Shown: positions 8,942-62,331 of the stretch, piece after piece
Layout of the letters: each line of letters starts with the position of its first letter
Position numbering within the stretch: position 1 is the stretch's first letter
DNA from: Atopobium sp. UBA1382
GTDB lineage: Bacteria > Actinomycetota > Coriobacteriia > Coriobacteriales > Atopobiaceae
Assembly: GCA_002305805.1 (NCBI GenBank)
Contig: DBQY01000007.1
Location: forward strand, 63,645 to 127,644
Length of the DNA: 64,000 nucleotides
Reading direction: 5' to 3'
Made by a program: the position numbers and the translations under genes
Notes under the pieces: model-generated
The model's input: the letters and a program-made list of their open reading frames with translations, nothing else
Databases searched by the model: none
What the model was told of the DNA's origin: nothing

Positions 8942-9063
8942 TCCCACGGCACCAAGGCCCACCTGACGTGCGCCCTCTTTTGTGGGCAAGCTTGTCGCCA
9001 AAATATCGACAGCTTTGGGTTTCTCGCCCGCCTGCAAACTTGAATCCGCCCATCTCATGAAGC

Positions 9064-9098
9064 GGGCCCGGACCGCAGGGGGTTGGCGGTCCGGGCCC
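9064..9098 (-). terminator. Terminator of the hydrogenase operon
   Basis: A perfect 13-bp stem GGGCCCGGACCGC / GCGGTCCGGGCCC lies 30 bp beyond the hydrogenase stop on the minus strand. A smaller hairpin, AAGGGGA/TCCCCTT, follows at 9106-9121. It may also stop helicase transcripts arriving from the other side. Confidence 0.65.
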
Positions 9099-9129
9099 AG
9101 ATGACAAGGGGATGTCCCCTTCGCATCGA

Positions 9130-27906: not shown

Positions 27907-28839
27907 TCACACAATCTGGCTGAGAAGCCAATCACGCCGCCCGGGGTCGGGCGGATTCGCCTCGATTCCGAGGTCTTGGCACAGCTGCCGCGCCAGCACG
28001 TCGAGAGCGTCCCCGCTCAACTGGTCGTTGGTGACGGAGGTCACCTTCCAGCCCATCGCCTTGAGCGAGTTTCTCTTCTTCGCATCATGGTCCAGCTGCC
28101 AGGGAGAGAGATGGTTGGCATAGCTGTCGCATTCCACGACTACCCGCTTGCCCACCCAAGCGAGGTCAACCTCGTACACGGGGAACTGGCTTATGGGGAG
28201 CTCCTCGACGGTCGGATAGATGCGAACGTTGAGCTCGGGCGACGGCAACCCGTATCCGCCCAGGCGCCGCGGCAGCGTGAGAATGATGGTGACCCTCGTC
28301 TCGAGGGGCGATCGGGAGCGTTCTGCCGCCCAGCGCAGAGAGGCGCGGGCCTTCTTCACGCCGGGGAGTCCGTCCGCGTCCGCAAGATAGTCCCGAAGCT
28401 GGTCTGTGTCCAGCAATGGCCCTCGGTCGAGAAACCCACGGGACGTGGGCACGCATCCATACAGCCCCAGGCACTCCATCTCCAGGGCCGCAACACGAGG
28501 AACGCTCTCCCGAGCCGCCCTGAGAAGACAGCAGAACGCAGGAGAGGTCACGAGCACGCCCGGGGAAAGCCGATAGAGAGAGCCGGCGGGCAGACGTCCC
28601 GACCAGACGTGGCTGACTACCTTTGCAGATTGTATCCTGTGCTCCGGCGCGTCCACGATGACGTGCACCGGGTCGTCTTTGGAATAGGTGATCCCCAGCC
28701 CCTCGAGATCCGCCTCGCGCAGCTCACGCGCAGACGAGACGGACCAGTCCACTGCCGCGCTCACGGGCCACCCTAGGCTATCAAGCAACCCGTCCTGGGC
28801 CCAGAGCCGCATGGCCGTTATGTCCGCGAGCGTCACCAT
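27907..28839 (-). CDS. DUF559/Vsr-like nuclease-domain protein (family E paralogue)
   Basis: A 310-residue protein. The N-terminal two-thirds has the PGVLVTSPAFCCLLRAA...ALEMECLGLYGC block, then SPLETRVTIILTLPRRLGGYG. The C-terminus has a restriction-endonuclease-like core, YEVDLAWVGKRVVVECDSYANH (D225, E236, D238, H243), as in DUF559/Vsr proteins. It is a clear paralogue of the protein at 59434-60552, sharing SPxETR...GGYG and GLYG. Codon use looks less GC-biased than neighbours. Start ATG has only a weak AGGC site. The gene is bracketed by family E repeats (27841-27902 and 28978-29036). DNA cleavage is inferred; no partner gene is adjacent. Confidence 0.7.
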   Translation of the reverse strand: MVTLADITAMRLWAQDGLLDSLGWPVSAAVDWSVSSARELREADLEGLGITYSKDDPVHVIVDAPEHRIQSAKVVSHVWSGRLPAGSLYRLSPGVLVTSPAFCCLLRAARESVPRVAALEMECLGLYGCVPTSRGFLDRGPLLDTDQLRDYLADADGLPGVKKARASLRWAAERSRSPLETRVTIILTLPRRLGGYGLPSPELNVRIYPTVEELPISQFPVYEVDLAWVGKRVVVECDSYANHLSPWQLDHDAKKRNSLKAMGWKVTSVTNDQLSGDALDVLARQLCQDLGIEANPPDPGRRDWLLSQIV

Positions 28840-50503: not shown

Positions 50504-50920
50504 CTACTTCTGCAGGTGCATGCAGGTCTGCGTGGCGCGGGCGACGGGCGTTCCCAGCTCGTCGGTCACGTAGCAGGTGTAGAACGCCAGCGTGCGGCCG
50601 TTCTTGTCGACGTCCGCCGTAGCGATGAGCCTCTCGCCCTTGGCCGCGCTCATGAACTCGATGTTGCTGCTCACGGACACGGTGACGGACTCGCCGACGT
50701 TGGACGCCACGGCAAACGCGAGGTCGGCCACCGTGAAGATGGCGCCGCCCATCACGCCGCCCTTCTCGTTACGGTGGCCGGGCGTGATGTCAAACTCGGT
50801 GACCGCATGCCCGCGCGCGGCCTCCACCACGCGACAGCCGCAGGCGTCGGTGGCAAAGCGGTCGTTCTTGAAGACGGCCTGGACCTCCTCGAGGGAGGCG
50901 TTCTCGTCGATCAGAGCCAT
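50504..50920 (-). CDS. PaaI-type hotdog-fold thioesterase
   Basis: A 138-residue thioesterase. The hotdog helix HRNEKGGVMGGAIFTVADLAFAVASN contains the Asn/Gly-rich catalytic stretch and Asp, followed by VSSNIEFMSAAKGERLIATADVDKNGRTLAFYTCYVTDELGTPVARATQTCMHLQK. It hydrolyses acyl-CoA (phenylacetyl or small aryl/acyl types). Start ATG 50918-50920 follows CAAGGAGGAAGC. Its first codons overlap the end of the pentapeptide-repeat gene by 10 bp, so the two are co-translated. Confidence 0.88.
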   Translation of the reverse strand: MALIDENASLEEVQAVFKNDRFATDACGCRVVEAARGHAVTEFDITPGHRNEKGGVMGGAIFTVADLAFAVASNVGESVTVSVSSNIEFMSAAKGERLIATADVDKNGRTLAFYTCYVTDELGTPVARATQTCMHLQK

Positions 50921-51591
50921 GCTTCCTCCTTGATCTTGATGCCGAGAAGCCCCATGAGCTCCGCGGCCTGGTCGGGGTCTATGACGGCGCCTCGCAGCTC
51001 GCGCAGGTCGCTCGAGACGCGCAGCCCGGAGATGTCGCAGGTGGAGAGGTCCACGCCGGAGAGGCTCGTGCGAAAGAATGTGGCGCGCGAGAGGTCGCAG
51101 CGGTCCAGCGCGAGGTGGCGCAGCTTGGTGGCGTGGAAACTCGCCTCGGAGAGCTTGGTCTCGCTCGCCACGAGCTGGTCGACGGTGGTCTCCGAGAGGT
51201 CCGCGTAGGCGAGTTGGCTGTCCTCGAGGGAGACGCCAGTGAGGCGGCTCTTGAGGAAGGAGAGCCCTGGCGCCGAGCAAGAGCGGAAGTCCACGCGGTT
51301 GAGCCAGCTGCGCCCCAGGTCGCAGCGCACGAAGCGGCAGCCCGAGAAGAGCACGTCGGTGAACGTACAATTGGAGAGGTTCACCCGCTCAAACGTGCAG
51401 CTGCGAAAGGCCACGTTCTCGAAGACGGTGCCGTCTGCCGCGACGTCCGCGAGCTCGAGGCCCGTGAACGCCGTGTTGGACACATGCGCGTCAGGAGTCG
51501 TCAGCGCGGCGAGGAGCTCGTCCTGACTCAGGTTGCACCCCAGGTCATCGCGCACCTGAGCAAAGCGCCTGACCTGCCGTCTCTGCACCAT
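50911..51591 (-). CDS. Pentapeptide-repeat protein (Qnr/MfpA-like fold)
   Basis: A 226-residue right-handed quadrilateral beta-helix protein. From about residue 40 to 190 the A(D/N)LxX periodicity is visible: FENVAFRSCTFERVNLSNCTFTDVLFSGCRFVRCDLGRSWLNRVDF, LEDSQLAYADLSETTVDQLVASETKLSEASF, LDRCDLSRATFFRTSLSGVDLSTCDI. The end VIDPDQAAELMGLLGIKI is typical of Qnr-type proteins, some of which mimic DNA and protect gyrase from quinolones (established for Qnr/MfpA). Whether this one does is unknown. The family A1 repeat lies just upstream. Confidence 0.82.
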   Translation of the reverse strand: MVQRRQVRRFAQVRDDLGCNLSQDELLAALTTPDAHVSNTAFTGLELADVAADGTVFENVAFRSCTFERVNLSNCTFTDVLFSGCRFVRCDLGRSWLNRVDFRSCSAPGLSFLKSRLTGVSLEDSQLAYADLSETTVDQLVASETKLSEASFHATKLRHLALDRCDLSRATFFRTSLSGVDLSTCDISGLRVSSDLRELRGAVIDPDQAAELMGLLGIKIKEEAWL

Positions 51592-51651
51592 GTTCTTCTT
51601 GCCTCCTTCGCGCCCAGTATGCCACGCCGCCGCTCAACGTTCCGCAATTGT

Positions 51652-51775
51652 GCCGACTTGGCAGAAAAACCCGTGCCAAGTCGCCCATATCGAGGAAAAC
51701 GCCGAGAAGAACCGCAGGTCGCAAAAATCTGCGTCTGCCAGATCACCCAATTCGAGGAGCGGAGCGCGACGTGAG
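51652..51775. repeat. Family A element, copy A1
   Basis: Hairpin GCCGACTTGGCAG / GTGCCAAGTCGCC (51652-51685), then the conserved GCCGAGAAGAACCGCAGGTC core, then a third copy CTGCCAGATCACCCAATTC starting near 51735. The second and third TGCCA are 62 bp apart, as in A3 and A5. It fills the gap between the pentapeptide-repeat gene and the ArsC-like gene and ends 6 bp before the latter's stop. Confidence 0.8.
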
Positions 51776-51780
51776 CGAAG

Positions 51781-52143
51781 CTACAGCAGCGCCTTCTCCC
51801 ACTCCGCCTCACGGAAGCCCACGAGCACGAAGTCCTCGCCCACAACGATCGGCCGCTTAACCAGCATGCCATTCTCCGCAAGAAGGGCGAAGGCCTCCGC
51901 GTCCGACATGCCGGCGTCAAGCTGCGCCTTGATGTTGCGCTCACGGTAGAGCACGCCGCTCGTGTTGAAGAAGCGGCGCACAGGCAGGCCGGAGCGCTTC
52001 TGCCAGACGGCGAGCTCCTCGGCCGTCGGGTTGTCCTCGACGATGTGGCGGTCGGTGTACGCAACACCATGCGCGTCCAGCCACGCCTTCGCGCGCTTGC
52101 AGGTACTGCACTTCGGATACTCAACAAACAGCACGTCAGACAT
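51781..52143 (-). CDS. ArsC/Spx-family thioredoxin-fold protein
   Basis: A 120-residue ArsC/YffB-like protein: FVEYPKCSTCKRAKAWLDAHGV with a CxxC redox motif, NPTAEELAVWQKRSGLPVRRFFNTSG, YRERNIKAQL and NGMLVKRPIVVGEDFVLVGF with the usual cis-Pro. Such proteins are arsenate-reductase-like or glutathione/thiol-dependent reductases, or Spx-like RNA polymerase binders. The KRPI...GF block favours the reductase-like group. GAGAAGGGACCCACC precedes the ATG. Confidence 0.87.
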   Translation of the reverse strand: MSDVLFVEYPKCSTCKRAKAWLDAHGVAYTDRHIVEDNPTAEELAVWQKRSGLPVRRFFNTSGVLYRERNIKAQLDAGMSDAEAFALLAENGMLVKRPIVVGEDFVLVGFREAEWEKALL

Positions 52144-52283
52144 GGTGGGTCCCTTCTCTCGGTTGCTGCCCTCACCAGTGTAGCAAGCGCCTTAGGCGCG
52201 ACCCGCCTTGGAAGCCGGTTTCAACGCAGGTCCTTGGCATACTCGCTGTGCCCCAAACGTATAATCGCTCCAAGGAGGAAGCC

Positions 52284-53300
52284 ATGCCAGCACAGCTCAC
52301 ATACGAATCTCCAGTGTTTCTCCCCACGTTGGAGCGCGCCAGGAAGCTGGTTCCGCAGGCATTTCTGCCCTGCTACGACTGGTTCATGAGCAATGCTGGC
52401 GAAAAGATTCCGCGACTCCCCCATCGCATGGACCTCAAGCCGGCGACCCCCATCCCGCTCAGCAGGGACTCTGGCATCTACATTCCTGGTTCTGCCCAAG
52501 TCGAATATGACGGAGGGCGAAAGTATGCCCTCTCGGTTCACTCGACGGGACACAAGAGATACAACGATAGGGCACCCATCCCGCTCGCCGACGGCACATG
52601 GGTCCTCAGCTATGCCGCTCATGAGGGCTCCGACTCGAGCCAGGGCTACAACATTGCTCTGATGAACTGCCTCAACGACGGCATTCCCGTCGGGGTCTTC
52701 GTCAAGGAGGCCCCTGGCTACCGCGTCCTCGGACTTGCCTATGTTGAGCAGTACAACAGCGTTACCCGCATGTTTACGCTGCATGGGCCGATCTCGACGA
52801 CAACTGAGTCGGCCGGCTCGTTTGTCCCCCACGGCTTTGAGGAGCTGCCCGAGAACGAGCAGAAGATCCTGATGGAGCTGGACGGACAGGATGAGCGGCG
52901 CGTGGTGACCGCCCAGCAGGTTCGCCGTGAGCAGCAAAGCAAGTTTCGCGAGGCGCTTCTGCACGCCTATTCGGAAACCTGTGCCATAACCGACGTAAAT
53001 GTCCCAGAGGTACTCCAGGCAGCACACATCAATCCGTATCGCGGGAGAAAGTCCCAGGTCGTAAACAATGGTCTCCTTCTTCGCGCAGACCTTCACCTGC
53101 TTTACGACGCACACCTCATCTCGGTGGAACCCAACTCGCTTTCGATAAGCCTCAGCGGGCGCCTGGAGAACACGTCATACCTTCGCTATAACCACCAAAA
53201 GCTCCGCGAACCAATCTCGGCGGACCTCGCCCCCAGCACCGATCTTCTCGCCGTTCATTACGAGCAGTTCAGGCGCGAGAACCCTGTTCTTGTCGCTTAG
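52284..53300 (+). CDS. HNH endonuclease (putative type IV/modification-dependent restriction type)
   Basis: A 338-residue protein starting at ATG 52284 after AAGGAGGAAGCC; a TATAAT (52260-52265) lies just upstream. C-terminal HNH: REALLHAYSETCAITDVNVPEVLQAAHINPYRGRKSQVVNNGLLLRADLHLLYDAHLISV, with the His-Asn-His residues and one Cys of the zinc pair. The N-terminal ~200 residues (GSAQVEYDGGRKYALSVHSTGHKRYNDRAPIPLADGTWVLSYAAHEGS...) have the look of an SRA/YDG-like or other DNA-recognition module. SRA-HNH fusions cut DNA with modified cytosine (established for ScoMcrA and relatives). It stands alone in an accessory stretch with less GC-biased codon use. Confidence 0.72.
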   Translation: MPAQLTYESPVFLPTLERARKLVPQAFLPCYDWFMSNAGEKIPRLPHRMDLKPATPIPLSRDSGIYIPGSAQVEYDGGRKYALSVHSTGHKRYNDRAPIPLADGTWVLSYAAHEGSDSSQGYNIALMNCLNDGIPVGVFVKEAPGYRVLGLAYVEQYNSVTRMFTLHGPISTTTESAGSFVPHGFEELPENEQKILMELDGQDERRVVTAQQVRREQQSKFREALLHAYSETCAITDVNVPEVLQAAHINPYRGRKSQVVNNGLLLRADLHLLYDAHLISVEPNSLSISLSGRLENTSYLRYNHQKLREPISADLAPSTDLLAVHYEQFRRENPVLVA

Positions 53301-53454
53301 ATTCGAAGAACTTGTCAAAGAGATCATCCATCTGGCAGGCGACGAACTCTCGGCACCATTCCGGGCACTCTTCCAGATCACACGTCGAGCAGTCGTCAAT
53401 AAGTCCCCACAACTCTTTGCGAAACAATCTCTTTTGCAGGCTCAAACTTGGCAT
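53269..53454 (-). CDS. Small cysteine-rich protein, overlapping the 3' end of the HNH gene in antisense
   Basis: A 61-residue frame beginning MPSLSLQKRLFRKELWGLID behind a strong GGGGGAGGAGAGGGT site. The middle carries five cysteines (DDCSTCDLEECPEWCREFVAC; spacing C-x2-C-x4-C-x3-C-x5-C), enough for a metal site or disulfides. Its last ~10 codons overlap the HNH gene tail to tail by 32 bp. No homologue comes to mind. The good start site supports translation; a role linked to the HNH protein is speculative. Confidence 0.5.
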   Translation of the reverse strand: MPSLSLQKRLFRKELWGLIDDCSTCDLEECPEWCREFVACQMDDLFDKFFESKRQEQGSRA

Positions 53455-53561
53455 ACCCTCTCCTCCCCCTCTCAATACCTTTCGCCAGCATAGGGCGGGA
53501 GCTTCCGATCCGATCAAAAGACACAATCTGGTTCCGTCGCGCGATCGTGCACAAAACTGGT

Positions 53562-53745
53562 GACTTGGCAGAGAATTGGTTGGTGGGTGTAAAAAAGATG
53601 GCGACTTGGCAGGAAGCCATATGCCAAGTCGGGTGGTTTGTGCATGCGGGCGAGAAAAACCGCAAGTCGCAATTCTCGGCGGCGTGCGAGCCTCTGCCAA
53701 GTTTCCTGGTTTGTTCAAGTCGGGACCCCAATTTGTGCCAAGTCG
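53562..53745. repeat. Family A element, copy A2 (five iterons)
   Basis: Direct copies GACTTGGCAG at 53562 and 53603 are 41 bp apart. Inverted copies TGCCAAGT lie at 53622, 53695 and 53736, the last two also 41 bp apart. The outer four are symmetric about 53653. Near the centre are GTTTGTGCATGCG (53636-53648) and a diverged GCGAGAAAAACCGCAAGTCGC. This is the fullest family A copy and mirrors families B and C. It fills the gap between the small Cys-rich gene and the HAD gene; the HAD promoter -10 is probably TATACT at 53780-53785. Confidence 0.8.
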
Positions 53746-53810
53746 GGTCATTTTGGCAGCGGCGGTATATGGGCGCCGCTATACTCGGCTCAGGCGACGA
53801 AGGGAGCCCC

Positions 53811-54419
53811 ATGGACCGCAAGCTGCGCGCTATCGTGTTCGATATGGGCAACGTGCTCATGACGTTCGACGGACCGTACTTCGCGTCGCGCTTCACGGAC
53901 ACGCCCGAGGACGCCGCGCTGCTCAACGATGCCCTCTTTGGGGCACCCATCTGGGCCCTTCTCGACTCGGGGACCGTCAGTCACGAGACCGCCCTGCGCG
54001 TGGCGGCCGCGCACCTGCCGGAGCGCCTGCGCCCCAACCTCGACGAGTGCTTCCATCACTGGCCCGAGCTCTCCGAGCCGCTCGAGGAAGTCAACGACCT
54101 GGCCATTCGTCTCAAGGACGAGGGCTACCAGATCTACGTGCTCTCCAACGCCAACGTGAACATTATGGCGCAGCTCGGACACGCGCCGGCCACGCCGCAC
54201 CTCGACGGCGTCGTGGTCTCGGGCATCGAGCGCATCATGAAGCCGGACCCCGCGATCTTCCTCCTGCTCTGCGAGCGCTACGGGCTCGCCCCCGAGGAGT
54301 GCATCTTCATCGACGACAATGCGGACAACTGCGAGGGAGCCCGCGTCGCCGGCATGCACGCCTACCATTTCACCGGGGATGCCGCGGAACTGGCGGCCAC
54401 GATTCGAGCGCTGGGCTAA
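53811..54419 (+). CDS. HAD-superfamily hydrolase (class IA, YihX-like)
   Basis: A 202-residue HAD phosphatase: IVFDMGNVLMTFDG (motif I, DxGNVL form typical of YihX-like enzymes), YVLSNANVNIM (II), GIERIMKPDPAIFLLLCERYG (Lys, III) and CIFIDDNADNCEGARVAGM (IV). Start ATG 53811 follows GAAGGGAGCCCC. Alpha-glucose-1-phosphatase-like activity is plausible but unproven. A headless Fic gene begins immediately after its stop codon. Confidence 0.85.
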   Translation: MDRKLRAIVFDMGNVLMTFDGPYFASRFTDTPEDAALLNDALFGAPIWALLDSGTVSHETALRVAAAHLPERLRPNLDECFHHWPELSEPLEEVNDLAIRLKDEGYQIYVLSNANVNIMAQLGHAPATPHLDGVVVSGIERIMKPDPAIFLLLCERYGLAPEECIFIDDNADNCEGARVAGMHAYHFTGDAAELAATIRALG

Positions 54420-54421
54420 TT

Positions 54422-55210
54422 TTTCTCAAGGACTCGCTCGACGAGAACTATCAGATCAACGACTCGCTCTTTCGCGCTGGCCCCGTGTTCATCGAAAGTC
54501 GGGGAAGGGTCCTGCATCAAGGCGTGAGCCCAGAAGCCGCAATCAAGAAGATGCTCAGTCAGATGCTGGAGCTTGTGAGCTCGGAAAGTATTCCCGAGAT
54601 GTACAGCGCGCTTCTCGCCCACTTTCTCTTTGAGTACGTTCACCCCTTCTACGACGGAAACGGTCGTACGGGACGTTATCTCCTTGCGCTCAACCTCAGC
54701 ACCCCGCTGTCTCAGCCAACGGCGCTCTCTCTGTCCCGCGTCATCGCCGAAAACAAGAATGCCTACTACAAGGCGTTCGATCTCGTCGAGAGGCCGCTCA
54801 ACTGCTCCGAGGCAACGCATTTCGTCATCACCATGCTCGACCTGATAGGTCAGGCACAAGACGATCTCATCGCAAACCTTGAGGAGAAGAAGGGGGCGCT
54901 CGAAGAGCTGTGTGCGCGCGTAAACTCCCTCGATGACTCGTTCTCCGAACGTGAGCGTGATCTCTTGTTCTACATCGGGCAGCTGACCCTTTTTGACGCC
55001 TTCGGAGAGACTGACATCAAGCGCACCTCCGCATACCTTCAGGCCTCGGTGCCCACCACGAGAAAGGCGCTCGAGCAACTCAGGGCAAGAGAGTATCTCC
55101 TTAGGACGTCGATGAGGCCCGCCGTCTACCGCCTGTCTCAGCAAGGCCGGGCAGCACTTGGCCTGGGTGATGTTAGAACCCCCGCAGACGAGGTGCTTTC
55201 AGAGGTCTAG
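54422..55210 (+). pseudogene. 5'-truncated Fic-family protein gene
   Basis: About 263 codons of open frame run from directly after the HAD stop to 55210 without a plausible start codon or ribosome-binding site at the beginning. The Fic core is intact: HFLFEYVHPFYDGNGRTGRYLLAL (HPFxxGNGRxxR, the AMPylation motif). A helical region (LIANLEEKKGALEELCARVN) and a winged-helix-like end (RTSAYLQASVPTTRKALEQLRAREYLL) follow. The usual N-terminal helical domain with the inhibitory motif is missing, so the gene looks cut at its 5' end. An internal start (e.g. ATG near 54551) would give a shorter unregulated Fic core. Its end overlaps the kinase gene by 4 bp. Confidence 0.7.
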
Positions 55211-56406
55211 ACCTGCGCAATCACGGTCGCGACAATCCAGGCGACCAGCAGCGCGAGCATGACCAGCAGACCCGTGCTCGTCTCGCGACGCACGGTGAGG
55301 CACGCAAGCACAGGGATTCTCCTTCGCAGCGGGCGCCGGTCGAGCAGCAGATAGCAGCTGATAAGGACGATGGGCATCGCGAAGGCCAGGTACGAGTAGA
55401 GCCGGTACCACACGGGCCAGGAGGCAATCTCAGCGCCTGGATTGACCATAGCCCCCACGCAGCCCACGACCATGACCGCACACGCACACAGCACGCAGAC
55501 GTCCCACGCGATGCCCAGCTGGCGCGGGACGCAGGTGAGCAGATTGGCGCGCCATGGGCGCTGAGCCTCGAACGAAGGGGGCTCGAGCAGCGCGTTCTTC
55601 TCGGCTGGTTGTTGCGAGAGCGCGGCGAGCAGGCCCTCCTTGAACTCGCGGACGGACGGGAAGCGACGCGCGGGGTCAAGCTCGACGGCACGGGCGATGA
55701 CGGGGCGCAGCGTCGCGGGCGCGTCCGCAAAGCCGCGCTCGCGGTCTGCAGCCACGGGGTCGCAGCCTGTGAGGCAGAAGAAGAGCAGCATACCAAGGGC
55801 ATAGACGTCGCTCGTGACGTCGGTCTGGCCAAAGCCAAACTGCTCGGGTGGGGCATAGGCACGCGTGCCAAAGTGAGTGGTGTCCTGCTCGCCGCCCTCG
55901 CGCCAGGTTCGCGCAATGCCCAGGTCGATGAGGGTGACGCCGCCCGCCGAGACCATGACGTTGCCCGGCTTGAGGTCACGGTGGATGATGGGCGGATCGA
56001 GGAGCTCGTGGAGCTCGCTCACCGCGTCGCAGAGGTCGGGGAAGATGCGGTGCACGAGGCCGAGGCGGTCATGAGCGCGCGCCACGGCGTCGGCAAGCGT
56101 CATGCCTCCCACGTGCTCCATGACCACGACGAGCTTGTCGTCCTGACGGTGGCACTCGATGATGCGCGGCAGATGGGACAGACGGACGCCGGACCGCTGC
56201 GCCTCGAGCACGGTCTCGTACGCGCCGCCCAGGCCCGAATCGGCGTCGAGGTACTTGCGTACGAACGGCCCCAGCTCCGCGCCGTTCTCGCCCACGAAGT
56301 AGACGCGCTGCGTGGTCTCGAGCCGGCCCTCCTTGAGCACCGCGTCCACGCGGTAGCAGGAGTCACGGTCGAGTGCCGCCAGGTAGTTTGAGAGCTCATC
56401 TTCCAT
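55207..56406 (-). CDS. Membrane Ser/Thr protein kinase (PknB-like catalytic domain)
   Basis: A 399-residue protein. Kinase domain residues ~15-265: FVRKYLD (Lys), VVVMEHVGGMTLADAV (hinge), PIIHRDLKPGNVMV (catalytic HRDxKxxN), LIDLGIAR (DLG in place of DFG), FGTRAYAPPEQFGFG and TSDVYALGMLLFFCLTG. Three or four C-terminal membrane helices (LGIAWDVCVLCACAVMVVGCVGAMV, LAFAMPIVLISCYLLL, LLVMLALLVAWIVATVIA) anchor it, with no PASTA domains. The upstream small HTH-like gene (56574) is on the same strand; the family A3 repeat lies between them. Targets unknown. Confidence 0.87.
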   Translation of the reverse strand: MEDELSNYLAALDRDSCYRVDAVLKEGRLETTQRVYFVGENGAELGPFVRKYLDADSGLGGAYETVLEAQRSGVRLSHLPRIIECHRQDDKLVVVMEHVGGMTLADAVARAHDRLGLVHRIFPDLCDAVSELHELLDPPIIHRDLKPGNVMVSAGGVTLIDLGIARTWREGGEQDTTHFGTRAYAPPEQFGFGQTDVTSDVYALGMLLFFCLTGCDPVAADRERGFADAPATLRPVIARAVELDPARRFPSVREFKEGLLAALSQQPAEKNALLEPPSFEAQRPWRANLLTCVPRQLGIAWDVCVLCACAVMVVGCVGAMVNPGAEIASWPVWYRLYSYLAFAMPIVLISCYLLLDRRPLRRRIPVLACLTVRRETSTGLLVMLALLVAWIVATVIAQV

Positions 56407-56453
56407 GCGCCCATCCTAGCAGAGGCCGCGTTGCGCTGGCGCTCCCGGAAAAT

Positions 56454-56573
56454 GGCGACTTGGCAGGAAATCCCATGCCAAGTCGCCAAATTAAAGGAAA
56501 GGGCCGAGAAGAACCGCAGGTAGCGCTTCTCGCGCTCTGCCAAGTCGCCCAATTCCAGGAGCAGAGCGCGACG
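56454..56573. repeat. Family A element, copy A3
   Basis: Perfect hairpin GGCGACTTGGCAG / (A)TGCCAAGTCGCC (56454-56487), then GGCCGAGAAGAACCGCAGGT (core) and CTGCCAAGTCGCCCAATTC (from 56537) followed by GAGCAGAGCGCGACG. The 62-bp spacing of the TGCCA copies is conserved. It lies between the small HTH-like gene and the kinase gene, inside what may be one operon. Confidence 0.85.
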
Positions 56574-56993
56574 CTAGCAGATGGTCTTCTCGCCAAAGCG
56601 GTAGAGCTCCTCGTTAACCTTCTGGAGCGAGCAGCCGCGGTCCAGGCAGAAGATGATGATCGCGTCGCGCCGGTCCTTGCAGTAGAGCTCGCTGACGCCG
56701 GCAGCCGTGAGCGCGCGGTTGGTCTCGCGCAGCGTGAGCGCCATGGCGAAGGCGATCTGCAGCACCTTGTCCCGGCTGGGGTGGCGCGTGCCCTGGAAGA
56801 TCTGGTAGCCAAAGGTGTCGTTGAGGCTGGCCATGCGCACCACGCGCGAGCGCTCCAGGCCCTTCTCGTCCAGCAGCCGCTGCAGGTACTCGGAGAGCGT
56901 GAGGGCGCGCGGCTCGTGCTCCTCGAGGTACTCGTCGATGCTCGACGTGGAGAGGAGCTCGTCGAGCAGCTCCTCGGTCAGCGGTTCGCTCAT
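56574..56993 (-). CDS. Small HTH-like protein associated with the Ser/Thr kinase
   Basis: A 139-residue cytosolic protein; start ATG 56991-56993 behind GGAGGAGCCCGC. The middle, LSEYLQRLLDEKGLERSRVVRMASLNDTFGYQIFQGTRHPSRDKVLQIAFAMALTLRETNRALTAAG, is an XRE-like helix-turn-helix. The end (DRRDAIIIFCLDRGCSLQKVNEELYRFGEKTIC) is a conserved family tail. Proteins of this form often neighbour eukaryote-like kinases in Firmicutes and Coriobacteria, and may be kinase substrates or phospho-controlled regulators (inference). It overlaps no gene, but is followed by A3 and the kinase. Confidence 0.72.
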   Translation of the reverse strand: MSEPLTEELLDELLSTSSIDEYLEEHEPRALTLSEYLQRLLDEKGLERSRVVRMASLNDTFGYQIFQGTRHPSRDKVLQIAFAMALTLRETNRALTAAGVSELYCKDRRDAIIIFCLDRGCSLQKVNEELYRFGEKTIC

Positions 56994-57018
56994 GCGGGCT
57001 CCTCCCCTCTTGTCCGCG

Positions 57019-57534
57019 CTATGCCACCGAGAACGTGGCCTCGGCCAGAATCGTATCATAGAGCGAGAAGAGCTCGCTCACCTCGACGGTGACGTCGGAC
57101 TCGTCCGCCAGGCTGAACGCGAGGCGCGCCTGGGTGGTCGCACCGGGCTTGATCTCTGCCATGTAGCCGTTGCCCAGATCGTCCATGACGATGGCGGTCT
57201 CGAGCTGGACGCCGTTCTGGAACGCCTTCTGGGAGCACGCAACGGCAAACGACGTCGCCTCGTCCGAGTTGTTGGTGAACGAGAAGTCGATGATCATCGC
57301 GGGGTTGCCCTCGTAGTCCGTCGTCACCGTGGAGCCGTCGATCGTCACGGCGTACTTGGACTGCGGAGCCTCCTCCGGCTCGGCCTCCTGCGCCTGCTCC
57401 TCGGGAGCCGTCTCGGCATCGGCCTGGGGCTCGGACGCTCCCCCACCGCACGCGGTCAGGGTCAGCGGAGCCGCAACGGCGGCGGCGAGCGCAACAACGA
57501 GCATGCCATGTCCCAGCGTCTGGATCTTTCTCAT
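57019..57534 (-). CDS. DUF5067-type lipoprotein
   Basis: A 171-residue lipoprotein. Start ATG 57532-57534; signal MRKIQTLGHGMLVVALAAAVAAPLTLTAC with lipobox LTAC. An acidic Glu/Ala/Pro linker (about 32-60) leads to the beta domain YAVTIDGSTVTTDYEGNPAMIIDFSFTNNSDEATSFAVACSQKAFQNGVQLETAIV, which matches DUF5067 as I know it. Predicted to sit on the outer face of the membrane. It is upstream of the HTH-like gene on the same strand (25 bp gap) and may be the first gene of that operon. Confidence 0.82.
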   Translation of the reverse strand: MRKIQTLGHGMLVVALAAAVAAPLTLTACGGGASEPQADAETAPEEQAQEAEPEEAPQSKYAVTIDGSTVTTDYEGNPAMIIDFSFTNNSDEATSFAVACSQKAFQNGVQLETAIVMDDLGNGYMAEIKPGATTQARLAFSLADESDVTVEVSELFSLYDTILAEATFSVA

Positions 57535-57683
57535 CCAAATCACCCGCTCTTTCAAACGCGGTCCTTCAGGTAGCTGCAGCGTACCAACACGCTGAGTCGC
57601 ATTCATTAGCTGCGAGCTAATGAAACGCGCGAGGCAGGTCCCGATACTGTGAGGCGCGGCAAGCCCAAGTGAAAGGAGCCCTC

Positions 57684-57959
57684 ATGGCAGACAACAACAA
57701 CCAGCCGACCTCTGCCGCTGCGATCGTCGGACTGGTCCTGGGAATCCTCGCGATCGTGACCTCGTGGATCCCCATCGTCAACAATCTCTCGTTCATCCTT
57801 GGCGCCATCGGCCTGATCTTCTCGATCGTAGGCGTCATCGGCACCGCGCGCGGCAAGAAGGGCGGCAAGGGACTCGCCATCGCTGCGCTCATCGTGAACG
57901 TCCTCTCGCTCGTGATCGTGCTCGGCCTGCAGAGCGCCTGGAGCGCGGCTCTCTCGTAA
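57684..57959 (+). CDS. Small DUF4190-like membrane protein
   Basis: A 91-residue protein with two or three membrane segments: AAIVGLVLGILAIVTSWIPIV, LSFILGAIGLIFSIVGVIGTA and LAIAALIVNVLSLVIVLGLQ. A short polar N-terminus (MADNNNQPTS) and a basic loop (RGKKGGKG) fit DUF4190-type proteins. GAAAGGAGCCCTC precedes the ATG. It lies 49 bp before the JetD-like gene on the same strand and may be co-transcribed; function unknown. Confidence 0.78.
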   Translation: MADNNNQPTSAAAIVGLVLGILAIVTSWIPIVNNLSFILGAIGLIFSIVGVIGTARGKKGGKGLAIAALIVNVLSLVIVLGLQSAWSAALS

Positions 57960-58008
57960 CGAGCCCCCAACGCGGTATGCTGTGGGGACCCAAGAGAAGA
58001 GGAACCCC

Positions 58009-59211
58009 ATGGCACATCGACTCACCGAGCAGGAGCACGACACGGTGCTCCTGCTCGCAAAGATCCTGAGCAAGCAGCTTCCCACGCAGTTCCGCAGCGT
58101 TTCCGGTGGCATCGCGAGCGGGCTCGTGCGTCTGCGCAAGAACCCGCTCGCCGCCTCCGACGTGGCCTCCGTCCTGGAGAGGTACGACGCGGACGAGACC
58201 GCACTCGCAACTCTGGTAGAGATTGGCGTGCTCGAGGCCGTCCCGGAAGGCTACGCGCTGCACGTTCCCCGTGACCAGGACGGGCACGCCGAGAAGAACG
58301 AGCGCTCGATCACCCGCACCGAGTCGCCGCGCCCGCCTGCGCGACGCGGCGCACGCGGCCTTGCCGGCCTGGACACCATCCGCAAACAGTCACCCGAGCT
58401 CAACGACGTGCGCCGGCAGATCATCGACCTCGACCCGCGCCTGTGGATCAACGGCTGGCTGCTGAGCACGCCCGACGCGTTCCTACGCTTCGAGCGCGGG
58501 CTGCGCGCACTCGACGCCGCGCTCGCGGGCGGAGCCACACTCGGTGACGGCACGCTCAGCCTGCGCGAGCTCTCCTACCAGCTCTTTGGTGACGAGAAGT
58601 TCCTCGCCGTGGAGTCCGACGGCCGCAAGCTCCTGCACCTCATGGGCATCACCGACGTCGTGAGCTGCCGCCCGCAGGTGAAGCTTGAGCTGCTGCACCA
58701 CATTCCCAAGCACCACCGCCACCTGCGCCTCGTGGTCTCGGAGAACCTCGACCCCTGGGTCAACATGAGAAACGCCATGTTCCTGGACGGGCGCAAGAAG
58801 ATTCTGGGCGAGCGCGTCCACGGCGTCGTCTTTGGCAACGGCTACTTGGTAGACGACCCCCACAAGCTGCCCGACCTTCTCGACACGCTGGGCGCGAGCG
58901 ACGTGCGCATCCTCTATTGGGGTGACATCGACCGCGCCGGACTCTCCATCTTGGCCAAGCTCGCCGACATGGCTGACGGGCGCTTCTCCGTAGAGCCGTT
59001 TGCGCCGGCGTACCGGAAGATGCTGCGCCGTGCCATGCGGCGCTTCCCGGACCCGCTCCAGAACGAGGAGACCGACCAGAGCGGCGTGCGTGTGGCCGGC
59101 CTCGAGCTCATGGAGGGCGTGCTGGACAAGAAGGAGATGGCCTACCTGAACGCCGTCGTGGAGGGCGCGCGCCTGATCCCTCAGGAGATTCTCACCGCAC
59201 ACGACCTGTAG
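58009..59211 (+). CDS. Orphan JetD-like protein (DUF3322/DUF2220, Toprim-type nuclease domain)
   Basis: A 400-residue protein. The C-terminal half resembles the DUF2220 Toprim-like domain of Wadjet JetD: LRLVVSENLDPWVNM (candidate catalytic Glu), VVFGNGYLV and VRILYWGDIDRAGLSILAKLADM (GDxD metal motif). The middle, VRRQIIDLDPRLWINGWLLSTPDAFLRFERG ... LSLRELSYQLFGDEKFLAVESDGRKLLHLMGI, fits DUF3322. The N-terminal 80 residues look like a helical/wHTH region. In Wadjet, JetD cuts plasmid DNA together with JetABC SMC proteins (established). No jetA, jetB or jetC lies nearby, so it is an orphan here. RBS AGAAGAGGAACCCC. The A4 repeat follows. Confidence 0.72.
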   Translation: MAHRLTEQEHDTVLLLAKILSKQLPTQFRSVSGGIASGLVRLRKNPLAASDVASVLERYDADETALATLVEIGVLEAVPEGYALHVPRDQDGHAEKNERSITRTESPRPPARRGARGLAGLDTIRKQSPELNDVRRQIIDLDPRLWINGWLLSTPDAFLRFERGLRALDAALAGGATLGDGTLSLRELSYQLFGDEKFLAVESDGRKLLHLMGITDVVSCRPQVKLELLHHIPKHHRHLRLVVSENLDPWVNMRNAMFLDGRKKILGERVHGVVFGNGYLVDDPHKLPDLLDTLGASDVRILYWGDIDRAGLSILAKLADMADGRFSVEPFAPAYRKMLRRAMRRFPDPLQNEETDQSGVRVAGLELMEGVLDKKEMAYLNAVVEGARLIPQEILTAHDL

Positions 59212-59235
59212 GTCCGCAGGCGCTCCTGAAAAGCG

Positions 59236-59338
59236 GCGACTTGGCAGACGAGAAACACGACGAGCTGCGGTTCTTCTCGGCCGCTTCTCAAGAATCGGCA
59301 ACTTGGCAGGCAATTCTCTGCCAAGTTGCTGTTTTTTA
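59236..59338. repeat. Family A element, copy A4 (left bracket of DUF559 gene)
   Basis: Order: single GCGACTTGGCAG (59236 on), reversed core GAGCTGCGGTTCTTCTCGG, then the hairpin AACTTGGCAG / CTGCCAAGTT (59300-59327). This is the reverse complement of the A5 arrangement on the far side of the DUF559 gene, with long near-identity. A4 and A5 are therefore ~105-bp inverted repeats with their hairpins facing the gene. The rest of the 222-bp gap before the DUF559 start holds CTAGTTTTTTCTAG (59411-59424) and no clear ribosome-binding site. Confidence 0.85.
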
Positions 59339-59433
59339 GGAGGTCGGTGCCACGCGACACGTTTACCCGCGCCTGGATAGTTTCGTGATAGATAGCGTCA
59401 GACTCGCGACCTAGTTTTTTCTAGCGACCCCGT

Positions 59434-60552
59434 ATGGCGTTCCCAGTGCCCTACCGTATGTGCATGGACATTTTGCTCACGCATACTACAGCCTTGGAGA
59501 CACTGCGCAGCGCCCGCCTGCGCAGGCGCCTCGAGCGGCGGGAGCGCTGTGATGCGCGCGTCCCCGATCGCGCGCCCAGCGGGGAGGAACTCCGCGCGTT
59601 CATTGCCGCGACGCCCGAGCTCGCCCGCGCGTCGCTCCCCCTCGGGCTGCTCGTCACCAGGGACGCGCCCCGCTCACGCACCAAGCTCGCCCATACGCAC
59701 CCCTCCCCCGCGGAACTTCCCGCTGGATCTGCCTTCGAGGTCGCGCCAGGGGTGCTCTGCGTCTCACCGGAGCACCTGCCCGCGGTCATGGCCCCGTCGC
59801 TCACCGACCTCGAGCTCGCGTTTCTGCTCTCCGAGCTCCTTGGCCTCTACGCCATCGCACCAGACCTTGAAAAGGGAATGATCCAACGCCGAGAACCGCT
59901 CACTACGCCCGCGCTCGTGCTCGCACACCTTGACGCGCTTGGCTCGGAGCGCGGGACGGATCGCGTCCGCCGCGCGCTCGCCAGCGCGTGCGTGCAATCG
60001 GGCTCGCCGCAGGAGACGCGGCTCTCGATGCGCCTGGGGCTTGCGCGCATGCGGGGAGGATACGGCTTTGACGTGCTCGCCATGAACGACCCGGTTGCCG
60101 TCCAGCGCGTGCGCGACGCAATGCGGCCGGGCGTGCGCAAGCCCGACATACTGCTGCGAGCACCGGATGGTAACGGTCGCGGCGTGGCGGTCGAATACGA
60201 CGGAGGGGACCACAACAGCACGGAGGCACACGCACGGGACGCAGAGCGGCACACGGAGCTCATTGCCCTCGGCATAGACGAGCACATCGTCACGGCCAGG
60301 CAGTACCATGACCTTGACTACATGGACGATCTCGCAGAGATCATCCGCAAGGCGCTGGGGATTCCCAAGCCCCACCTCACGCGCGCCCAGCAGGCGAGAA
60401 ACCGACAGCTGAGGCAGCGGCTCTACAAGGAGCTTGAGCTCATCGACGGCGTTCACTGGAACGGGCGCGAGCGTGCGCGGGGGCGGACATGCGCCACCCC
60501 CGTTGCCGACGACGAGTGGGACGTTGTTCCCGTCGACGCGTACGGCGTCTAG
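59434..60552 (+). CDS. DUF559/Vsr-like nuclease-domain protein (family A paralogue)
   Basis: A 372-residue protein (a start at ATG 59464, MDILLTHTTALETL, is equally possible; none has a clear ribosome-binding site). It shares with the 27907-28839 protein PGVLCVSPEHL...ELLGLYAI, then SPQETRLSMRLGLARMRGGYGF. Its restriction-like core is RKPDILLRAPDGNGRGVAVEYDGGDHN (D238, E254, D256, H260). The extra C-terminus is basic (RAQQARNRQLRQRLYKEL). Both family A inverted repeats bracket it directly. Likely a DNA-binding nuclease that recognises or mobilises those repeats (inference); an AbiEi-like or abortive role is an alternative. Confidence 0.7.
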   Translation: MAFPVPYRMCMDILLTHTTALETLRSARLRRRLERRERCDARVPDRAPSGEELRAFIAATPELARASLPLGLLVTRDAPRSRTKLAHTHPSPAELPAGSAFEVAPGVLCVSPEHLPAVMAPSLTDLELAFLLSELLGLYAIAPDLEKGMIQRREPLTTPALVLAHLDALGSERGTDRVRRALASACVQSGSPQETRLSMRLGLARMRGGYGFDVLAMNDPVAVQRVRDAMRPGVRKPDILLRAPDGNGRGVAVEYDGGDHNSTEAHARDAERHTELIALGIDEHIVTARQYHDLDYMDDLAEIIRKALGIPKPHLTRAQQARNRQLRQRLYKELELIDGVHWNGRERARGRTCATPVADDEWDVVPVDAYGV

Positions 60553-60586
60553 GCGAGGTTCTTCTCGGCACCCGGTCCTGAAAGAT

Positions 60587-60690
60587 GGCGACTTGGCAGA
60601 GATTCGCCTGCCAAGTCGCCAAATTCAAGGAAGGGACCGAGAAGAACCGCAGGTCGCGAATTACACGCGCTGCCATATCGCCCAATTCGA
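60587..60690. repeat. Family A element, copy A5 (right bracket of DUF559 gene)
   Basis: Perfect hairpin GGCGACTTGGCAG / CTGCCAAGTCGCC (60587-60620) with an 8-nt loop, core ACCGAGAAGAACCGCAGGTC and a weakened third copy CTGCCATATCGCCCAATTC (from 60670). It mirrors A4. It lies between the DUF559 stop and the convergent MFS gene, where it may also act as a terminator. Confidence 0.85.
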
Positions 60691-60699
60691 GGAGCGGAC

Positions 60700-62331
60700 T
60701 CAGCCCTCGCGCTTCTCGAACGTCTTGATCGCCGGGGTGGTGAGCAGGCCGAGCAGGATGATTGCGGCGCCCACGCCATAGGCCGCCCGCGTGGACTCGT
60801 AGCGGGCGCGCGCCTCGATGTTCACGAGGGCGGTGCGCTCGGAGTCGCTCATGTCGATGTCGGAAATCTGCTCGCGGAACTCCTGGTTGCTACCCAGGTT
60901 GATGCTCATCTGAGCAACCTGCTCGCTGACCGCCGGCGAGACGGCGGGGTCCGCAGCCGCGCCCGCACGGATCTGGCCCGTGATGCCGAGCAGCAGCACC
61001 GCGCCCAAGAGCGCCACGCCAATGGCCTGGCCCACGTTGCGCATGGTGCTCTGGATGCCGCCCGACTGCGAGGCGTCGCGCTCGCTCACCGCGAGGGCCA
61101 CGACGTTGCTCGAGTGCGACGAGACGGTGCCCGCGCCCACACCTGCGACAAAGGCGCCAAGGTAGACGCCAAAGGCGTTGCTTCCGTTTATGGTCACGGA
61201 GAAGGCCATGATCGCAAGGGCGCCCGCCATGATGATGTAGCCGACCTGAATGACGTGGCGCGGGTTGGCGTGCGGTGCCAGCTTGGGGATGCCAAGTGCC
61301 AGCGCAAAGGTGGGAACACCGGTGACGATGGAGATCACGCCCACGTCAATGGGGCTCCAGCCGGCAACAAGCTGCAGGTAGGGGGCCATGAGGATGGACT
61401 GGACGCCCATGAAGAAGAACGTGATCGCATTGGCGGCAAGCCCGGCGAGGACCTGCGGGGTGTGCAGGAACGACTGCGGCAGCAGCGCGACCCCGTTGCG
61501 CTTCTCTACGCCCTTCTCCACGTGCACGAGCACGATCAGCACAATCACACCAAGAAGGGCGAGCGGCAGCGCCGGGGAGAAGCCAAAGAACGTGAACGGG
61601 CAGGTGTCGAGCGGCTCGATGAGACCCCACGATGAGATGCTCGAGACGCCCACGAGGAACATGAACAGGCCGGATGCGGCAAGCGCCACACCGATGCCGT
61701 CAAACTTGAGCTTCTCGTCCACCTGGTCGATGTGCGGCAGGCTCGAGGAGACGCCCAGCACGGCAAGGAAGTAGGCGGCGAGCACGAGGAAGGTCACGTG
61801 CATGCCGGCGGCCTCCATGACGACACCGAGCATGAGCGGCAGCAGAGCAGAGAGGCCCGACGCCGCACCAATGCAGCCAAAGGCGACGGTGCGGTTGTGG
61901 CCCTGGTAGAGGTAGGGAATGAGACCGAGCACCGACGGAATGAGGAAGCTCGCGCCAAAGCCCACGAGCACACGGCCGACCCAGATGAAGATCTCCATGT
62001 TAGGGGCGAGGGCGCAACCGACCTCGCCGAGCGCACAGAGGGCCGCGCCGATGCGGAACGCGCGCTTCCAGCCGATGATGGTGCCCACGAGTCCGCCCGC
62101 GATCATGAAGGCGCCACCCATGAGCGGGTAGACCATGTTGGCGAGCTGGATCTCGGAAGTGGTAGCTCCCAGGTCATGGGTAAGCGCAGAGGCGGCCAGC
62201 GACAGGGCGCCGTTGTCTCCCGACGTACCCATCTGGGCGAGAATCAGAATGAGAATCGGCAGAACGGCAAAGTGCTCCGCGGCTGATCCGCTCGCTCTCG
62301 CGGTATGCCCCGCGGCAGTAACTGAATGCAT
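60700..62331 (-). CDS. MFS multidrug exporter, DHA2 (14-TMS) family
   Basis: A 543-residue exporter. TM1 LPILILILAQMGTSGDNGALSLAASALTHDLG replaces the usual LDxTIVNVALP with a diverged form. GGAFMIAGGLVGTIIGWKRAF is motif A and GRVLVGFGASFLIPSVLGLI is the motif after it. About 14 hydrophobic segments, plus a polar extracytoplasmic insert near the C-terminus (QIRAGAAADPAVSPAVSEQVAQMSINLGSNQEFREQ). The insert is a feature of some actinobacterial DHA2 proteins. Start ATG 62329-62331 follows GAGAGGATAGATA. No regulator is adjacent; substrate unknown. Confidence 0.87.
   Translation of the reverse strand: MHSVTAAGHTARASGSAAEHFAVLPILILILAQMGTSGDNGALSLAASALTHDLGATTSEIQLANMVYPLMGGAFMIAGGLVGTIIGWKRAFRIGAALCALGEVGCALAPNMEIFIWVGRVLVGFGASFLIPSVLGLIPYLYQGHNRTVAFGCIGAASGLSALLPLMLGVVMEAAGMHVTFLVLAAYFLAVLGVSSSLPHIDQVDEKLKFDGIGVALAASGLFMFLVGVSSISSWGLIEPLDTCPFTFFGFSPALPLALLGVIVLIVLVHVEKGVEKRNGVALLPQSFLHTPQVLAGLAANAITFFFMGVQSILMAPYLQLVAGWSPIDVGVISIVTGVPTFALALGIPKLAPHANPRHVIQVGYIIMAGALAIMAFSVTINGSNAFGVYLGAFVAGVGAGTVSSHSSNVVALAVSERDASQSGGIQSTMRNVGQAIGVALLGAVLLLGITGQIRAGAAADPAVSPAVSEQVAQMSINLGSNQEFREQISDIDMSDSERTALVNIEARARYESTRAAYGVGAAIILLGLLTTPAIKTFEKREG

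Follow-up and report, generated by a model that had tools for sequence, protein, structure and literature searches.

What ties a nuclease-like gene to the repeat arrays on both sides of it, and does the tie belong to one locus or to the gene family? The locus lies in a stretch of 64,000 nucleotides (the window; G000:C8:63645-127644) from a source genome of 2.0 Mb in 23 contigs. A sequence-only reading of the window had described a DUF559 nuclease-like gene bracketed by inverted repeats of a family A, and had likened the unit to a transposon or to REP/RAYT elements. The repeats are indeed tied to the gene family, but a classical transposon unit is not supported.

Both arrays, A4 and A5 (Table 1), are placed and inverted as had been read. 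No longer inverted repeat is listed for the window: the arms of 81 nt (59261-59341 / 60576-60656) are 78% complementary, and blastn aligns A4 with A5 at 75.6% over 123 nt. The iteron CTGCCAAGTCGCC is the building unit of both, and the hairpins ACTTGGCA-N10-TGCCAAGT at 59301-59326 and 60591-60616 are gene-proximal on either side, in agreement with the earlier description. A5 also holds a degenerate third iteron, TGCCATAT, at 60671, 62 bp further on, and an outer inverted pair, GGTTCTTCTCGG / CCGAGAAGAACC, at 60557 / 60637. With at most one mismatch, CGACTTGGCAG has 15 sites against 1.9 expected, a count reached in 0 of 100 shuffles; GAGAAGAACCGCAG, with at most two mismatches, has 8 against 0.5 (0 of 100). 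Rfam covariance models gave no match at E ≤ 0.1 across 50900-61200. The gene is likely to start at 59464 rather than 59434, because its relatives start at MDILL. An orthologue (87%) with the same neighbours occurs in an uncultured Olsenella (CASEQJ010000004).

Table 1. Coordinates of the bracketed gene, its arrays and neighbours in the window, and of bracketed genes of a second family.
Feature	Position	Strand	Detail
Solo array A1	51638..51765	+	
Solo array A2	53545..53770	+	five exact ACTTGGCA iterons, 53563 to 53743
Solo array A3	56440..56566	+	same-strand iteron spacing 62
JetD-like gene	57982..59211	+	upstream neighbour
Upstream iteron array A4	59229..59343	-	ACTTGGCA at 59239+, 59301+, 59319-; same-strand spacing 62 bp
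Nuclease-family gene	59464..60552	+	362 aa from conserved MDILL start; 372 aa from upstream ATG 59434
N-terminal half	59464..59988	+	~residues 1-175; predicted fold like AbiEi antitoxin C-terminal domain
C-terminal half	60001..60363	+	~residues 180-300; predicted Vsr/EDxHD-type PD-(D/E)XK nuclease fold
Downstream iteron array A5	60553..60698	+	ACTTGGCA at 60591+ and 60609-
MFS transporter (PF07690)	60700..62331	-	downstream neighbour
L167 (G024:C4), plus L269-L273	~8123-9957 (L167)		bracketed SLFN_AlbA_2/HATPase_c_4 genes

Structural modelling predicts a two-domain protein, an AbiEi-C-like half followed by a Vsr/EDxHD (I-Bth0305I-like) nuclease half. Foldseek returned no match at E ≤ 0.001 for either model, and these fold statements rest on a second look at the matches (VIA). 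The N-terminal half, which contains the most variable stretch of the protein (residues 16-80), aligned only to the AbiEi C-terminal domain (6y8q 67-195) and not to the DNA-binding winged helix. The predicted model of the nuclease half has the EDxHD feature, a Vsr-like catalytic fold with conserved acidic residues and a histidine; the conserved catalytic residues are E184 (60013), D228 (60145), E244 (60193), H250 (60211) and R262 (60247), and the restriction-like D...E...H core noted earlier is therefore real.

The DUF559 label was not upheld. PF04480 has no match to the protein at E ≤ 1, and a search of its own genome matches C8:91635 and C13:80746 only, which ruled out Pfam DUF559 identity. 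The sole Pfam match, REase_MTES_1575, is weak (E 0.007) and below its cut-off. A Vsr-like nuclease motif is presumably common to this protein and the DUF559 / REase_MTES_1575 proteins, from which it differs in these Pfam results. Pfam detected neither a transposase nor a Y1 HuH domain in the protein, PADLOC gave no match for it, and a PDB sequence profile search gave no meaningful relative; no relative was found in viral contigs, and no plasmid copies by blastn. An adjacent nucleotidyltransferase toxin was absent among the five neighbours tested (JetD-like, DUF5067, a kinase, MFS and one without a match).

Homologues are present in all 31 genus genomes at E ≤ 0.001 and in 29 at E ≤ 1e-20, the threshold at which 46 of 140 genomes of the taxonomic family also have one. 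We analysed 82 loci: 68 core members, which are 68 of the 69 matches listed at ≥35% identity (G023:C7:18918 was left out), and 14 distant homologues among the weaker matches listed, with the window's own distant homologue checked separately. The latter, at 27964-28659 (-), matches PF04480 and has no bracketing arrays.

The two flanks resemble each other (blastn E ≤ 1e-3) in 57 of 68 core members, 36 of them at ≥60 bits. The same comparison was positive at 7 of 205 control positions in the window (one being the gene itself; none at ≥60 bits), in 3 of 14 distant homologues and at 5 of 54 JetD/mfd loci, where two of the five are artefacts of overlapping windows. A gene without repeats, which was to count against the earlier reading, is thus a minority case in the core (11/68 without detectable flank similarity, one having a flank that was too short) but not among the distant homologues (11/14). 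Of the core members, 46 of 68 have an 8-mer that occurs at least five times in all and on both sides of the gene, whereas 0 of 14 distant members do; the figures for comparison are 23 of 1034 window positions (four being family A) and 7 of 385 others.

Members are spread over at least 15 distinct neighbour clusters. The bracketed layout is kept, in one case weakly, by four members from other genera (32-43% identity; one per genus, examined without a control of their own). Their most frequent 8-mer, counted across both flanks, reaches 7, 5, 4 and 5 copies, and in most of the four the spacings are close to 31, 41 or 93; the four-copy case (L237) is weak by the 8-mer null. Two paralogues in the window genome have repeat families of their own, with CCTTGTC units on C6 and GAACCCAAACC units on C9. 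These results support a general link between the repeats and the gene family.

Repeat words vary from member to member, in step with the protein. They include ACTTGGCA, CACGACCC, CGTGCCCC, CGAGTGCG, CTCGTGAA, GCCACAGC, GACGAGCC, CCTCCAAC, GGACCCAA and CTCACTTC, among others, and a 63% identical member in G014 carries CTGCCACGACCCC arrays. Within one locus, the upstream and downstream flanks have a median of 27 8-mers in common (65 loci; at least 15 in 54). Between genes, comparing the upstream flank of one with the downstream flank of the other, the median is 28-32 at protein identity ≥80%, 20 at 70-80%, 12 at 60-70% and 8.5-10 below. Among pairs of 55-95% identity, 180 of 198 share more within a locus than between loci. 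High cross-flank sharing below 60% identity occurs in 21 of 2174 pairs, mostly neighbours swapped at the mfd hot spot, so that neighbour DNA is in common; at least two pairs, L052 with L076 and with L077, are not explained in this way. The nuclease is also less conserved than its surroundings, with mean identity of 62.5% against 87.7% for the neighbours (115 same-locus pairs with both neighbours detected; below both in 105), an upper view of the contrast, given that neighbours needed ≥45% to be detected and some pairs may be replacements.

Iterons typically run in opposite directions either side of the array centre, and their spacing is regular. Same-strand distances peak at 31, 41-42, 62, 82-84 and 93 bp (429 pairs, 57 loci). 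In a scan of periods from 9.5 to 11.5 bp the vector length was highest, 0.716, at 10.5 bp for these 429 pairs, which are non-independent within a locus; with one modal distance per locus (n = 56) it was 0.668 at 10.35 bp. The window arrays fit this phasing, with 62 in A4, A5 and A3, and 41, 73 and 41 in A2. The iterons thus lie about whole helical turns apart, on one helical face.

G003 has 19 CTCGTGAATTCACGAG palindromes, nine pairs of them 52-53 bp apart. The unit consists of two 16-nt palindromes at that distance; nine were found, two of them bracketing the gene, and one additional unit has a one-mismatch partner. Of the ten units with one exact palindrome, nine have the partner exact as well, and their spacers and flanks vary. 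We had considered exact palindromes as proof of selection; this argument is weakened, as the search required an exact match, and the partners at 52-53 bp in G013 and G028, though mostly present, are degenerate, with 1-9 mismatches.

Family A also occurs away from the gene. The solo arrays A1, A2 and A3 all lie in the 8 kb upstream of the gene and A4, and the hairpin has 8 copies in the 2-Mb genome, 5 of which cluster in the 9 kb around the gene. Unrelated genes adjoin A1-A3 and three other hairpins. The hairpin was found in 5 of 31 genomes, and all 21 copies are 26 nt long although gaps of 3-14 were allowed. It is present in 3 of 3 genomes with a gene at least 79% identical and in 2 of the remaining 28, G013 and G027, which have orphan hairpins and no close gene. 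Array A3 is common to three species (also in G024 and G030), A1 is missing at the matching G030 site (24-bp gap), and the A2-matching site in G030 has GAACCCAAACC-type repeats instead. Conversely, G030 carries a ~225 bp family A element that the matching site in the window lacks. A1-A3 may be non-autonomous derivatives of the gene unit, as first proposed.

Two loci are polymorphic for the gene itself. The locus upstream of mfd was obtained in 30 of 31 genomes, with a GH13-type gene on its far side where reached (mfd and the GH13-type gene were named from sequence, not by family search). A core member is present in 15 of the 30, in mfd's direction in 8 and opposite in 7; in 11, GH13 adjoins mfd across a gap of 164-409 bp, and 4 could not be scored. 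The gap in G009 contains a solo array, assigned to the family of G025 by 44 shared 9-mers (15 for the next best), and no array was seen in that of G020. The mfd gaps in G000, G024 and G030 (L246, L241, L244) contain another palindromic repeat, TACGCGATTTCC...GGAAAACGCGTA, for which no cognate gene was identified.

The gene resembling JetD of the Wadjet system was found in 25 of 31 genus genomes, with one match each (two pieces in G020). The nuclease gene lies beside it in seven, and in G013, G008 and G025 JetD is followed directly by MFS with no nuclease gene. In the JetD tree G013 falls within a supported five-genome clade (99/98) with the gene-bearing G000, G024 and G030; the nuclease gene was therefore likely lost from JetD-MFS in G013. 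Between L078 and L082 the cassette is reversed between the same neighbours. Solo copies and gene-less sites thus both exist; the first reading had proposed to look for empty sites in sister strains. Several of the gene-less sites are not clean and contain other repeats. The G008 JetD-MFS junction (L156 ~2690-2900) holds a long near-perfect palindrome with repeated GGTGACAGGGTAA-type words.

One motif was dropped as specific to the system. The first reading had taken GAGAAGAACC as a core of family A, yet 12 of the 14 mfd loci inspected, including 5 of 7 gene-less ones, have an exact copy no more than 130 bp upstream of mfd. The genome contains 63 GCGAGAAGAACC sites, and of 30 inspected, 25 fall inside frames of ≥200 aa. 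A constant ‘cleavage’ module, GGCGAGAAGAACC, initially counted as part of the system, was abandoned because GAGAAGAACC occurs upstream of mfd without the gene too and because the motif is common in long frames. GAGAAG density is 3.7 per kb in core flanks vs 2.2 in neighbouring DNA. GCGAGAAGAACC is also repeatedly intergenic (L203; mfd 5' regions), for instance right after a TACAAT box before mfd.

A second bracketed family came to light at the A1 site, where G024 has a SLFN_AlbA_2/HATPase_c_4 gene between direct repeats with a different word, AACTAGAA. Of eight SLFN_AlbA_2 matches in the genus, five are bracketed, all at ≥55% identity, by direct repeats of 111-165 bp that are 79-95% identical, and here too the words vary with the protein (AACTAGAA, TAAGTAGA, CTATATCA). 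The other three are unbracketed; two of these matched in part only, and their true flanks were perhaps missed. Bracketing therefore extends beyond the nuclease, and the phenomenon may reach further than the nuclease family; given a bracketed family without this nuclease, something else may produce the arrays. Family A repeats at many unrelated genes had been named as a point against the earlier reading: bracketing repeats do occur at this one unrelated family, but with words other than that of family A.

The arrays are most likely binding sites of the encoded protein. The reading that we favour, with about an even chance of being right, is a self-bracketed nuclease module, similar to REP/RAYT or to intronless homing, in which the nuclease would recognise its own iteron arrays; binding, cutting and copying or movement are what we infer beyond the observations above. 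Protomers would bind the phased iterons and pair two arrays, or one array with a solo or empty allele, and the nuclease would nick or cut within or beside an array. Host recombination could then copy arrays, sometimes with the gene. Recombination between arrays would maintain the similarity of the flanks, give rise to solo arrays, and shift or remove the cassette at fixed sites. Such a mechanism would account for the match between paired flanks, for solo arrays, for alleles with and without the gene in both directions, and for words that track the protein. Against it stand the low number of solo copies (8 hairpins in 2 Mb with 5 close to the gene), the rarity of movement, the lack of a readable target-site duplication, the 11 of 68 members without detectable flank similarity, the bracketed family without this nuclease, the unmatched AbiEi winged helix, the failure to find a relative in viral contigs, the other repeats at several gene-less sites and the lack of Foldseek matches at E ≤ 0.001.

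Of the rivals, pure autoregulation of the AbiEi kind is the strongest, although we consider it rather unlikely. Here the arrays would be operators, perhaps also terminators or insulators, of an AbiEi-like repressor that carries a nuclease domain; phased binding on both sides would loop and silence the gene, and solo copies would be sites regulated in trans. The N-terminal half resembles AbiEi, and AbiEi and Rv2827c are described in PMC7319586 as binding several 23-bp inverted repeats in their own promoters. The 10.5 bp phasing suits looping, and the exact partners in G003 (9/10), amid differing spacers and flanks, look like selected sites, though the search demanded one exact palindrome. However, arrays lie downstream as well as upstream, the winged helix of AbiEi is unmatched, orthologous loci differ in whether they carry the gene-plus-array unit and in which orientation, and the dispersed units differ among species.

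If the unit were a transposon bounded by terminal inverted repeats, with the nuclease acting as transposase and A1-A3 as non-autonomous copies, this would explain the inverted A4/A5 pair, the presence/absence polymorphism and the two orientations upstream of mfd. Terminal inverted repeats are not the rule, however: over 67 loci the flanks are direct in 30 and inverted in 27, with no similarity in 10. No clear target-site duplication was read by eye at the mfd-upstream locus, JetD-MFS or two solo sites, where much intergenic sequence differs. In close relatives the gene mostly stays at a single locus between the same neighbours (115 pairs, 58 loci), so movement is rare. Together with the lack of a transposase domain by Pfam, these points make the classical transposon unit of the earlier reading very improbable.

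We give equally little credence to a hot-spot by-product, in which intergenic hot spots gather repeats and accessory genes, and bracketing marks insertion sites and not recognition. The bracketed SLFN_AlbA_2 genes (5/8), the A1 and A2 sites that hold different repeats or genes in different genomes, and the mfd hot spot, with other repeats at gene-less mfd and JetD sites, are all compatible with this. It does not account for a word that follows the protein sequence and is matched on two flanks, for the distribution of the family A hairpin (3/3 genomes with a gene at ≥79% vs 2/28 others), or for a layout that recurs across at least 15 neighbour clusters and in other genera. Least probable of all is a defence or conflict nuclease tethered or titrated by arrays, for example against phages or rival elements with the same words in an arms race: the protein changes fast (62.5% vs 87.7% for neighbours, 115 pairs), nearby variable stretches contain restriction- or defence-like genes and AbiE is a phage-abortive system (PMC3985639), but the protein has no PADLOC match, no toxin partner among the five neighbours tested and no viral homologue found.

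A bolder version of the self-bracketed module is offered tentatively, at clearly less than even confidence. It would posit a new class of ‘self-bracketed’ genes, in which at least two unrelated families, the AbiEi-C/EDxHD nucleases and the SLFN_AlbA_2/HATPase proteins, each lie between matched arrays of their own recognition word. Protein and word would diversify together in a PRDM9-like manner, and cassettes would invert, be reduced to solo arrays and return at fixed intergenic hot spots, all by array-directed recombination.

Among the closest known systems are REP/BIME repeats with RAYT (TnpA-REP, ‘REPtron’), where one gene has its own repeat family, inverted pairs and dispersed copies. PMC8266576 describes this as a gene with its own palindromic intergenic repeats and without evident mobility of its own. 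Here too, cognate repeats flank the gene and recur elsewhere in the genome (dispersal was tested for two words). In contrast, RAYT is a Y1 HuH transposase, whereas the predicted fold here is a PD-(D/E)XK/EDxHD-type nuclease; the repeats form multi-iteron arrays with helical phasing on either side of the gene, and ~4-19 copies were seen, against hundreds for RAYT repeats. Intronless homing by free-standing endonucleases is described in PMC6083498. Unlike EDxHD (Vsr-like) homing endonucleases such as I-Bth0305I, the present protein has its own bracketing arrays and an AbiEi-C-like half.

AbiEi antitoxins (type IV toxin-antitoxin) share the predicted fold of the N-terminal half and, as described in PMC7319586, several inverted repeats adjoining the gene; they differ in that here no winged helix was matched, no toxin was found in the neighbours tested, a nuclease domain is added and arrays lie downstream. 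Compared with Tn7-like ends and TnsA, there is no DDE transposase domain found, no fixed ends and no duplication read. The gene thus has its own repeat family, is unlike RAYT by enzyme and unlike DUF559 by Pfam, and does not fit the AbiEi definition in full. Searches of open-licence literature listed no title or abstract opening that describes such a nuclease-repeat pairing, and this looks like a so far undescribed repeat-and-enzyme partnership in Olsenella-like bacteria.

The case bears on how protein-repeat pairs spread and shift specificity jointly. To our knowledge, REP/RAYT is the chief example in bacteria of a protein linked with a dispersed repeat family of its own. An unrelated nuclease family with the same tie adds dozens of matched protein-repeat pairs in one genus, and the gene-less, solo, occupied and flipped alleles at one locus make both the protein-repeat code and any homing or conversion directly testable. 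If the SLFN_AlbA_2 case holds, the layout would be a general strategy and not one enzyme's quirk.

An HNH_2 endonuclease gene (52248-53300) lies between A1 and A2, and the matching G024 stretch (L167) holds a NUDIX-like frame and a 1005-aa helicase-like frame, both named by eye; window 51600-54420 / L167 looks like a variable defence-type spot. Right after a HAD hydrolase gene, a Fic/DOC-domain frame (54440-55210), apparently without a clear start of its own, is possibly a fragment.
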